DNA from: Apostichopus japonicus
Lineage: Eukaryota > Echinodermata > Holothuroidea > Aspidochirotida > Stichopodidae
Direction: 5' to 3'
NCBI RefSeq assembly: GCF_037975245.1
Contig: NC_092574.1
Span: 23,871,713 to 23,935,712 of the forward strand
Length of the DNA stretch: 64,000 bases
Under the pieces are notes generated by a model. It did not search any database, was not told where the DNA came from, and worked only from the letters and a program-made list of their open reading frames with translations. Numbering within the stretch: the first letter of the stretch is position 1; every line of letters starts with the position of its first letter. Shown one piece after another: positions 9,347-57,138 of this stretch. The position numbers and the translations under genes were made by a program.

Positions 9347-10635
9347 CACTTGAATTGAGGCAGAGCCGGGGCGCAAGGAATTAATTAAAGGGGGGGGGGG
9401 AAGACTCGCGCAAAAAGAAACGTCTAATGTCGGTAATCTGACCTAGTTTCGAATGAGGTGTAACGAAAGTTTTAGACACCACCATCGATCCCAGAAAATA
9501 AGCACAGAGCTTGCTACCTTCGGTAATTAGATACTAGTGTAGGCTACTGTCAGTACATATATACAGCTGCGGTCAATACCCACAGCACAGTGTACAAACG
9601 ATACAGCCAAGGACATCTCATGATGATGTCCAGCTAAAGATAACAATGTATCACGTTTAGTTTCATCATGGAGCTATAAACAGAGCTCCATGGTTTCATT
9701 ACTGTCTGCATTTTGTAGCGACAAGCAGAAAAGTTCACTTGCAAGCAGGGGCGTCAATCCGATTTGAAAAGTGGTGGGGGACGTAATCGATTCGAGTTTT
9801 GCGGCCGTAAGTACTATCAGAGCCGCATATAGAGATCTCTATATAAGGCTCTGAGTACTATCTAAGCGGAGCGCCACCATCGGTTGGCCCGCAGCGTGCC
9901 AAGAAAATTTCAGATTTCAATACCTGCCAGATCGCTGGAGATGGCACTTGTCAGGCTGGATAGCAGCCATCTAGTTGCGTGATATCGGGTGAAAATTACA
10001 AATTCGTCACTCAGGAAATCTGCAATAAAGTTCATGCGACCTTCATTTTTGGTGGATTATTTCTTTTATTAGTGATTCCAATTGACATGAACATTAGAAC
10101 CCAGTGCAAGTTGACAAATGATGTGGCGAACTGGAACCCCAGCCCCATTATGCCCTAGGATAGAATACCCCTCAATTGTTCGAACCCATGACAACTAACA
10201 ATCTGTGAATAAATTTTATCGTCAGACTTAGAAAAGGTCCCATGTGAGTGGGGGGCTAAAGTGATGAGGGCATCCAAATAAATCAGTGGTTGTTCGTTGG
10301 AGTCCTCACGCAAGTTACCTCGGTTGCTAGGTGGATCTGCATCTGGTAATCGGGTGAATTCTGATCGGAGCGTACTATGTAACCACCGTGTACCAAGGAA
10401 CGTAGCTAATGCCTGATGATTGAGGGGGGGGGGTGTATTTGAAAATCCAACTGGATGGGTTTAAGCCAGAAAATTCCGACTGCTGCTTTGTACCCCCCCC
10501 CCACCCTCGCGCTACTCGTCAACGATAGGGTCAGTGTCAGTCAGACACCCAATCTTTCGCGACTGCACTTTTGTTCCGAACTTTTTTTCGATACATTTGT
10601 ACCCACTGTGGCACTCATTTCACAAATTTATTAGC

Positions 10636-10990
10636 CCCCCCCCCACCCCAACCAAATATTTTTGTGAAATTTCGGTCAAAACGCTGATAAATTTTCGGGC
10701 ACCTACTGAAAGAAAGATAATTTGCAACGTGTTTTTCAGTAGTTAAACTTATATTATTATTACCATTAATATTGTAACGACTTTCAAATAATTGTAACCA
10801 ATATGGAAGGGTAATAAGACGGAAATGATTGTATGCTATTTGCATGCGATGTAAAAACCGATGCATGTCTATATAATATGCATTAACATGTGGAACGCGC
10901 GCGTAGCGCGCGACAAATTTTGGTTATATTTTTCGGGCAAGTCGTTACAACCCCCCCCCCCCCCAAATCAAATTGGCTCCTACGCCTATG
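10636..10990. mobile_element. Left-truncated hAT copy related to 11839-12806
   Basis: It shares the interior of the element at 11839-12806, including TTTTCGGGCACCTACTG, AACCAATATGGAAGGGTAAT and a GC-alternating hairpin (10895-10912), and ends with the same GGCTCCTACGCCTATG terminus. No matching left terminus or target duplication is present. Confidence 0.75.
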
Positions 10991-11201
10991 ACGGTAGTTC
11001 TATTAGGCATTTTTTAATTGGAGTATTCAAAATCATACGAAGTTTTGTACGGTGGAGTATAAGAATCGCGAGATACAATTTCTCAAAGTGGCAAGGCAAA
11101 CGTGGTAAATATGACAGATTAAAGGTAAATTTTGACCGACATTTTTCAATTTTTAGGTCATGCACAATCACAGGAATAAATGAATAGGCCAAGATAAACT
11201 A

Positions 11202-11236
11202 GAGTGCGACAGTCGGAAATTCCGACTGTCGCACTC
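11202..11236. repeat. 35-bp near-perfect palindrome
   Basis: Two 17-bp arms (GAGTGCGACAGTCGGAA and its exact complement) separated by one base. It would extrude as a tight hairpin. It lies in hAT-derived sequence. Confidence 0.9.
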
Positions 11237-11838
11237 CAATTTTCCAACTATCGTCAGTTTGACCAAGTTTGGGGTGAGACACTCACACACCCCCCTCTAG
11301 CGACGTCCCTGTGTGTACCCAGTGTTCTCACTGTGGAGTAAACTCCGGTATCACTTAACAACAAGGTAACATGGGATGCGCTGCCACGGAATATGCTCCA
11401 TATTTCATTTCTCCAATATTAGGGAACGGGCACCGTCTTTGAAACACCATCTACAACTAAACAACCACTATGTACAAGCTTTGGCTCTAGCTATGAAGTG
11501 CTGTCTCTTATGATAATGACGGAGCGCATTATAGTTTTCAACTGGAATCGCCCGAAGATGCGGCGTCTGTAATCCGAGGAACCAACGAACTTAACTCCTC
11601 AGGCTTCAACTGGGCTAGACGATCGCGGTGAATATAGCACACTATCACATGGTTCAGCCTCTGTTGAGTCATGGTGCTCCGTATAGCCATGTCTTCAAAC
11701 GCCTCAAAGCATTAAAAGATCTCTCGGCTTCCGTCGAACTGGCGGAGGAGACGAGGAGCAACCACAAGAGAGCTTCGACTTCACCAAACATAGCCCGTAC
11801 CGCTGGGTTCATCAACCTGAATATTTGTCTATACCCTT

Positions 11839-12806
11839 CATAGGCGTAGGAGGCGGGGGGGGGGGGGGGGCTGGGGGGGCTGCAGCCCCCCCAACCAATT
11901 ATTTTTGTGAAAATTCGGGCAATATGCTGAGAATTTTTCGGGCACCTACTGGAAGAATAATAATTTGCAGTGTGTTTTTCATTTTTTGGGGGGGGTGAAA
12001 ATTCGGCAATATGCTGAGTATTTTTCGGGCACTTACTGAAAGAGTAACAATTTGCAGTGTGTTTTTCAATTTTTTGGGTGAAAATTTGGACAATACGCTG
12101 AGAATTTTTTGGGCACCTACCAGTGGCGGAGCGTCCATACAGTCAGAGGGGGCGGATGCCCCCCTGACGGACTCAAACGGACTGCTGGCGCCCTTTTCAG
12201 CTTTTTACCACTTTCTACTTATTCGCGATTATTGACTTTTTTATTGCGCTCTGAAATACCTATTGACATTTGTCACATTTTGTTGGTGCAATTTTCTGAC
12301 AAATGGCGATGACACCTATTTATTCTTCGTTTATCTGTAAATTAGCTAGGCCTGGAAAGGGTGATTTCCGGCGATCTAGGGAGTATCTTTACTCAAAAAT
12401 TTTTTGCACGCTCCGCGCCAACCCGTGGTGGCGCTCCGCTTAGATAGTGTCGAAAGCGCCCCTACAGACCATTCTCTCTCCCCCTGACCAATACCCCTAG
12501 CTCCGCCACTGGCACCTACTGAAAGAAGAAAAATTTGCAATGTGTTTTTCAATAGTTAAACTTATATTATTATTATTATTGTTGTAACGACTTCCCCAAT
12601 AATTATAACCAATATGGAAGGGTAATAACACGAAAAATGATTTTATGTTATTGGCATGTGATGTAATAAGGGATGAATGCCTACATGATATGCACAATAA
12701 CATGCGCGGAACGCGCGCGGAGCGCGCGAAAAATTTTGGTTATATTTTTCGGGCAAGTCGTTACAGCCCCCCCCCCCCCAAATCAAATGAGGCTCCTACG
12801 CCTATG
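11839..12806. mobile_element. hAT-type element, third layer of nest 2
   Basis: Perfect 14-bp ends CATAGGCGTAGGAG and CTCCTACGCCTATG, flanked by the 8-bp duplication ATACCCTT at 11831-11838 and 12807-12814. It is interrupted by the miniature element at 12121-12511. It contains a GC-alternating hairpin near 12711-12728 and has no coding capacity. The left part repeats an internal segment two or three times (CGGGCACCTACTG... at about 11940, 12027 and 12110). Confidence 0.92.
12121..12511. mobile_element. hAT miniature element, copy B
   Basis: A 391-bp element with ends CAGTGGCGGAGC and GCTCCGCCACTG, flanked by the 8-bp duplication GCACCTAC at 12113-12120 and 12512-12519. It is the sister of copy A at 5637-6040. 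It is the innermost and therefore youngest layer of nest 2. Confidence 0.94.
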
Positions 12807-13189
12807 ATACCCTTCAACCGACAACAACTGGAACTGGCCTCGAAAGAAAGGCAGACTAAGCTTAAGATTGTCGGAGAGCTCAGGGTACCAACTCACGAGA
12901 TCTGGTGGAATTCTCCATTCAGCAACATTGAGTGATATTCGATGATATGAATCCTGAGATGTGTAAGTCCTAACCAAATAGAGACTCGACATTACTCTTC
13001 TTCCAAATGTGTGTGTGGGGGGGACATTTGATATTGTTTCCCCCACCCATCGAAATGTGGGGGGACGTGTCCAGGGGGGGACGGGGGACGTGTCCCCCCG
13101 TCCCCCCCCCTGGATTGCAAGCTTGCAAGCAACGGAAAGTTAACTTTTTCAGAGCGCGGCACGCGGTTTGGGGCGGGTCTTCAATGCCT

Positions 13190-13664
13190 TTAAGGTAAAT
13201 CCAGCCCTATATGAATGGATTAATCAGCTATGTATGGAAATGTCATTTGTTACTTTAGTTAAATAAATATATTTCGGAAACCAACTTTGCCAAAATATGT
13301 TTCTCACAGTTTCACAATATATACATCTTGAAGATAGAGAGAAGACGTTTGTGTTCTCGTTTTCGTTTCCAAGGTGTGATGTTTGCTTTTGTCGGTATTG
13401 GTTTTAGCCTCAGTTTTCGATTTCGTGAACGGTTTTGGTTTTGTTTTCGTGTTTATCTTTGGCTTTGATTGCGTTTGTTATTTTACCATTTATTTAATTA
13501 TCACTTTGCTTATTCTTTTGTGAATGTATGTGTTTTGTTTATTTAATTTATTTTTTATCATTGTTGTTGTTAACGGCACTATTCGGCTTTCGTAAATTCC
13601 ATTCACTTCATGTATTTCAAATGGTCATGTGTAGCAAGTTCTATCATATCCACAGCATTCGTAC
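13190..13664. other. Intergenic, T/G-rich
   Basis: Between nest 2 and the next hAT element. 13345-13480 is a degenerate run of GTTTTCG/GGTTTTG-like motifs. No gene is supported. Confidence 0.4.
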
Positions 13665-56778: not shown

Positions 56779-57138
56779 AGGCATTGAAGACTCGCCCCAA
56801 ACCGCATGCGGCCATTTGAAAAAGTTAACTTTCCGTTACTTGCAAGTGAAGTTTTGTTTGTGTCGCTACAAAGTGCGGACAGTAATGAAACGTGATACCT
56901 TGTTATCTTTTATCTAGACCTGAGATGTCCATCGCTGCTATTATATGTACACTGTGTTGTGGGTATTGACTGTAGCTAAATGTACTGACTGCACTAGTGT
57001 CTAATTACCGACGGTAGCAAGCTGTGTGTGTATTTTCTGGGATCGATGGTGGTGTCTAACACTTCTGTTACACCTCATTCGAAACTAGGTCAGATTACCG
57101 GCATGAGATGTTTCTTTGTGCTCAAGTCTTCACACCCT
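56779..57138. mobile_element. TTAA-flanked miniature element, intact copy
   Basis: A 360-bp element between TTAA at 56775-56778 and 57139-57142. Ends AGGCATTGAAGACTCG and CAAGTCTTCACACCCT are inverted repeats with a few mismatches. It is the uninterrupted relative of the nest 2 outer element. Kolobok-like by its AGG terminus and TTAA duplication; this is inference. Confidence 0.75.

Follow-up and report, generated by a model that had tools for sequence, protein, structure and literature searches.

Structure of the nested insertion

The 64,000-nucleotide stretch of Apostichopus japonicus DNA analysed here (the window) contains a nest of ordinary DNA transposons (Table 1). The nest described for this DNA in the preliminary description is real, although it had been mis-layered. 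The outermost unit has TTAA at 9385-9388 and at 13190-13193, and the duplications assigned to the three inner layers were found where they had been read, CTTGCAAG of level 2 at 9738-9745 and 13122-13129, ATACCCTT of level 3 at 11831-11838 and 12807-12814, and GCACCTAC around level 4 at 12113-12120 and 12512-12519. The relative of the outer element elsewhere in the window is indeed uninterrupted and lies on the reverse strand. The outer arms align with it continuously save for level 2, a 26-bp hairpin together with one copy of a duplication, and smaller insertions and deletions. Of the four insertion generations that had been proposed, a TTAA element containing a hAT element containing a hAT-like element stands, whereas the fourth level is not a separate event at this locus. 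There were three nested arrivals instead, and level 4 travels inside level 3 within an amplified composite family. Two small hairpin inserts with target duplications, listed in Table 1 as footprints 1 and 2, had been overlooked.

Table 1. Features of the nest, of its relatives in the window and of the transposase loci (positions in the window unless a locus is named)
Feature	Position	Strand	Remarks
Outer TTAA element, TTAA duplications included (element itself 9389-13189)	9385..13193	+	Kolobok/T2-like by target and terminal AG
Relative of outer element, uninterrupted	56779..57138	-	Lacks the 26-bp hairpin and level 2 (alignment)
Level 2 hAT element	9746..13121	.	Duplication CTTGCAAG; last 9 nt on the right replaced by CAAG
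Level 3 hAT-like element carrying level 4	11839..12806	.	Duplication ATACCCTT
Level 4 miniature element	12121..12511	.	Inside the level-3 subfamily beforehand; no separate insertion here
Footprint 1, 26-bp hairpin	9667..9692	+	17-18-nt P-type arm joined to 8-9-nt arm
Footprint 2, 36-bp hairpin (18+18 nt)	9818..9853	+	8-bp duplication AGTACTAT at 9810-9817 and 9854-9861
Level-3-like stretch native to level-2 family	10630..10991	+	Spanned by a single match of about 2 kb (9854/9856-11840) in L130-L133
35-bp hairpin native to level-2 family, no insert	11202..11236	+	Flanks shared in 19 fetched copies
P transposase ORF with RAG1 N-terminal (importin-binding) domain upstream of RNase H core	L051:3957-5981	minus	
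P transposase ORF with RAG1 N-terminal (importin-binding) domain upstream of RNase H core	L050:2824-4752	plus	
RAG1 N-terminal domain match under cut-off, third locus	L048:2876-4759	plus	

The outer element is one of a family of repeats, for which 40 of 2815 candidates were scored. It has TTAA on both sides and RR-type ends beginning AGG, and a TTAA duplication with RR-type ends is how Kolobok is defined in PMC6004289. The Kolobok/T2-MITE elements of Xenopus described there share the TTAA target and ends that start with AG, but the right end of our element, AGGCA, falls outside the AGGRR given in that source. Target and terminal AG suggest that the outer element is Kolobok/T2-like.

The level-2 family was examined in five fetched copies (L130-L134). 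The match to 9854/9856-11840 and the match starting at 12807 adjoin each other in L130-L133, so that level 3 is absent there, and the level-3 site was crossed without a break in 40 of 40 scored copies of the family, in a query that joins the two sides of the site as if empty, which favours uninterrupted copies, and for which 40 of 404 candidates were scored. Because level-2 family copies run across its site, level 3 has inserted into level 2. All five fetched copies end on the right in GGATTGACGCCCATG, followed in L130, L131 and L133 by the same 8 bp as precede the left end. At the right end of the window copy (13112-13129), GGATTG is followed by CAAG and then by CTTGCAAG, the last 9 bases of the family copies being gone, and this end may be a repair scar.

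Membership of level 2 in the hAT superfamily is indicated by its duplications and by the PF05699 relics of the family copies. Duplications of 8 bp and inverted ends, which start with CA as in other hAT elements, are found in the window copy, its right terminus being lost, and in L130, L131 and L133. The hAT dimerisation domain PF05699 was matched as a relic above the cut-off in L131 and L134, and below it in L132. The window copy differs from the superfamily in that the three ORFs scanned had no domain match. Two further candidates for insertion into level 2 were rejected. The stretch at 10630-10991, considered as a second level-3-like insertion, lies within sequence of the level-2 family, and the hairpin at 11202-11236, considered as a third insert, has flanking sequence common to 19 fetched copies. 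The latter gave 423 forward and 400 reverse matches in the genome (at most 2 mismatches), at largely identical places, the hairpin being nearly self-complementary.

Levels 3 and 4 as a composite element

Levels 3 and 4 both have the 8-bp duplication and inverted ends of hAT elements. It had been proposed that four successive insertions took place here and that the divergences of the layers form a clean relative clock, and all three inner duplications that such a series calls for are present. However, a query made of level 4 with both copies of GCACCTAC was matched at a minimum from 2 to 406 of its 407 positions in 35 of the 39 other copies among the best 40 of 3203 candidates, the window's own copy being the fortieth, so that the repeat is continuous across the boundary claimed for level 4, an outcome that the preliminary description had itself named as a refutation. 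The remaining four copies begin at query positions 3, 6, 10 and 10. Level-3 sequence flanks level 4 on both sides in all ten copies fetched with flanks. In six of the ten the composite has both ends and exact 8-bp duplications of its own, while the remaining four fail the exact end motif at one end or at both. Because of the six copies with their own exact duplications we take the composite to move as one unit, and it would appear that level 4 entered a level-3 ancestor and that the composite spread afterwards.

The order of the divergences also departs from the nesting. The layer dating that had been called for gave K2P distances of 0.052 for the outer element, 0.019 for level 2, 0.043 for levels 3 and 4 together and 0.023 for the level 4 part, each measured between the window copy and the majority of the fetched copies, which for the outer element and levels 2-4 were high-scoring hits and non-random. 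These distances do not date the landings, because family copies differed already before landing here. Four successive insertions at this locus are thus scarcely credible. In the three-arrival order, a Kolobok-like TTAA miniature element was hit by a hAT element, which in turn was hit by a composite hAT-like element carrying its miniature element from earlier.

Hairpin inserts in the window as probable excision footprints

When the 64-kb window was scanned for inserts of 14-60 bp of the form CA...TG, with inverted ends exact over 7 bp or more and a perfect duplication of 6-9 bp, two matches were returned, footprints 1 and 2, both inside the nest. Footprint 1 lies between two copies of the 7-bp sequence GTTTCAT (9660-9666 and 9693-9699) and is absent from the uninterrupted relative in the window and from all 13 readable copies of the outer element (15 fetched). 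The site of footprint 2 is uninserted in four of the five fetched level-2 copies, the fifth (L134) being unreadable there. It is very probable that the hairpins are excision footprints of P-superfamily transposons set on an ordinary nest of three arrivals, and that hundreds more were made likewise across the genome.

One P-type transposon would have entered the outer arm and another level 2, and both would have left later. The P-superfamily transposase would make a staggered cut, at the element border on one strand and about 18 nt further in on the other, each broken flank keeping an 18-nt tail of the terminal repeat. The tails could then be trimmed and end-joined at short microhomology to leave the target duplication and a short hairpin. 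The staggered cut itself, the end-joining pathway and parents like those of the present day as makers of the footprints are what we infer. Footprint 1 is consistent with a full tail that was joined, through a shared A, to a trimmed one. Five bases immediately to its left, GTTTA at 9655-9659, are extra in comparison with other outer copies and are without explanation under the excision reading.

The nearest parallel is the P element of Drosophila melanogaster. Its transposase is described as leaving 17-nt 3' tails (PMC2895639, PMC7776569), and its end-joining products as consisting of two tails with microhomology or filler between them, flanked on each side by the duplication (PMC2895639). As in the excision junctions given in these two sources, the junctions found here consist of a duplication, up to a full tail of each end and microhomology or filler, but the duplication is of 7 rather than 8 bp, the tails would be of about 18 nt and the terminal repeat is another one. 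Here, moreover, the junctions are natural and lie at hundreds of places, in contrast to those from the Drosophila assays. Galileo, a member of the P superfamily in Drosophila (PMC2775673), is reported with a 7-bp duplication and a palindrome-like consensus, GTAGTAC, comparable to GTTTAAC here. The terminal repeats of Galileo are described in that source as long and internally repetitive, whereas here they are of 33 bp.

Probable footprints across the genome

The 26-mer of footprint 1 occurs exactly at 29 places in the genome, and its reversed-pattern control at none. When the arms CATGGAGCT and AGCTCCATG were required within 48 bp, 801 places were found (control 0). Among the 50 of these that were listed the insides differ, being mostly pieces of the same kinds of end, and the longest is of 38 bp where 48 were allowed. 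These and the other genome counts of repeats are lower bounds. Two-armed footprints were fetched at 39 places outside the window, 21 of them (L001-L020 and L040) picked by the exact 26-mer from its 29 places. The 7-bp duplication is exact in 35 and has one mismatch in three, and L086 is the only one in which two of the seven bases differ. With flanks swapped between loci as a control, 4 of 1482 pairings matched exactly. When the most frequent base is taken position by position, the exact duplications give the consensus GTTTAAC. A further set, L108-L119, was picked for variety.

The 17-mer CATGGAGCTATAAACAG gave 697 matches, a count in which footprints with two full arms enter twice and parent ends are included (8 of 100 listed). 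The limit of the arms was followed at 40 sites, made up of 23 places on C3 in list order and 17 footprints on C1 and C2, with the first 17 bases required. Beyond these bases, agreement with the parent is 32 of 40 at position 18 and falls to 5, 7 and 9 of 40 at the next three positions (19-21), at or under the chance level of 10 of 40. Footprint arms accordingly end at 17-18 nt, an indirect readout of the cut position from sequence, in which base 18 may at some sites derive from the other side by microhomology, so that at such sites the arm may be of 17 or 18 nt. The C3 places (L080-L099 and L105-L107) are 23 of the 26 on that contig among the first 100 matches of the 17-mer, the three omitted being parent ends. 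L053-L070 are 18 of the 17-mer places on C1 and C2 outside the two-arm list, though not all of them, and L068 is a parent end. At the 40 sites the second duplication is exact in 15, has one mismatch in five, is reduced to a 4-base suffix in four and is not recognisable in 16, and this last group may be explained by trimming into the flank.

It could be argued that the hairpins are very small mobile elements of 26-36 bp that transpose as such by means of a P-type transposase. The recurrence of an identical 26-mer at 29 places, flanked by target duplications wherever it was fetched, would agree with this. However, the same two ends yield many different junctions, one-armed and flank-trimmed forms are common, and the full-length parents described below share the same ends and the same duplication length. 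A unit of 26 bp should also be too short for binding and pairing both ends. We consider such mini-elements very improbable and read the hairpins as excision footprints, because about 18 nt of an end is kept at most, the junctions are varied and the duplications match.

Footprints outnumber the remaining full ends of parents, with 697 matches of the 17-mer against 51 of a parent terminal 32-mer. This scarcity of parent ends might be taken to mean that the footprints are somatic, or come from a programme of developmental excision, and that the assembly shows somatic empty sites. Against this, footprints are common to duplicated loci with similar flanks (L004/L005, L015/L016 and L087-L089), and one has turned into a tandem array, in which a 35-bp unit made of the footprint and its 7-bp duplication is repeated in 16.2 copies (L071 321-881; C2, about 31.519 Mb). 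Both observations argue that the footprints are inherited. The same assembly also contains full-length copies, and a somatic or developmental origin appears very improbable. Since several footprints are copies of one another (L087-L089, L058/L092 and L066/L093, with one flank in common in L085/L086), the independent excision events are fewer than the counts. An inverted pair of 17-mers about 1 kb apart on C2 was considered as an intact element and rejected, the two being separate footprints (L052).

To our knowledge, what is known of the repair of P excision comes for the most part from fly and cell-line assays. The finding of interest here is the natural archive that P-type excision scars form in this genome, and a partial and weak literature search found no publication of a genome-wide set of natural P-type footprints. 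One assembly offers hundreds of inherited junctions that go back to the same starting ends, with full-length parents alongside, which makes it possible to measure the spectrum of repair, where the cut falls and how many past jumps there were per surviving copy. If there are so many more footprints than copies, copy number understates the past activity of such elements.

Full-length parents and their transposase

The terminal 32-mer of the parent had no match in its control and was counted in the genome with at most 3 mismatches. Seven inverted pairs were fetched. They are 4450-5099 bp long, with 33-bp terminal repeats and exact 7-bp duplications in all seven, and contain no open frame of more than 156 aa. 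A related copy of 10,646 bp on C17 has GCCCAAC on both sides. Its 675-aa ORF matches PF21787 (E 2.2e-26) and PF12560, RAG1_imp_bd (9.8e-11), and a second ORF matches PF21788 (E 3.6e-6). Among PDB sequences the transposase matches that of the Drosophila P element (6p5a, E 5.6e-7) and RAG1 (0.0004). The P-type transposase core, an RNase H domain with a GTP-binding insertion, together with terminal inverted repeats of about 30 bp and duplications of 7-8 bp, places the parent of footprint 1 in the P superfamily.

PF12560 was found at two places in the genome (14 candidates scored), both in ORFs of P transposases, which are 53% identical over 645 columns. No THAP domain was detected at E 0.01 in the 675-aa ORF, the scan covering this ORF only, and RAG1_imp_bd lies there. 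A THAP domain is reported for known P proteins (PMC1562414), and N-RAG-TP of Aplysia is described as an element of RAG1 N-terminal-like sequence (PMC8355894). For a fusion of the RAG1 N-terminal domain with a P transposase, the search of the literature, again partial and weak, found no publication. PF21787 has 45 matches in the genome, and 11 places were fetched (L041-L051). No end pair with an exact duplication was seen inside the fetched stretches, the far end of L051 lying outside and being located later.

It is possible, and we suggest it tentatively as something short of an even chance, that the genome is an archive of many hundreds of footprints left by a P lineage in which a domain like the N-terminal part of RAG1 replaces THAP, the stagger being of 18 nt and the duplication of 7 bp. 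A P transposase with such a domain bears on the origin of that part of RAG1. If the RAG1-like domain does stand in place of THAP, the N-terminal region of RAG1 and this P-element domain would share an origin in mobile elements.

A second family and further variants

The 18-nt arm of footprint 2, CAGAGCCGCATATAGAGA, of what is here called the CAGAGCC family, occurs at six places in the genome. As the pattern required all 18 nt, these places cannot show where the arm stops. An exact 8-bp duplication is present at four of the six, the window, L100, L102 and L103. In L100, L102 and L103 the arm is joined to a short piece of the other end, while in the window copy the second arm is complete. L104 has a piece of the other end and no duplication. 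In L101, also without duplication, the sequence after the arm could be flank or element. A pattern that allowed a variable core for footprint 2 matched the window copy alone. The layout of these places suggests that the CAGAGCC family may likewise be of P-type origin.

Other inner sequence, such as ATTACCGAA or AAACCTGGG, is seen in some footprints, for example L108, L109, L111 and L112, and these variants suggest that there could be several related P families with similar first bases. Apart from this, a different copy of the outer TTAA family (L106) apparently has a P-type footprint of its own elsewhere in the element.
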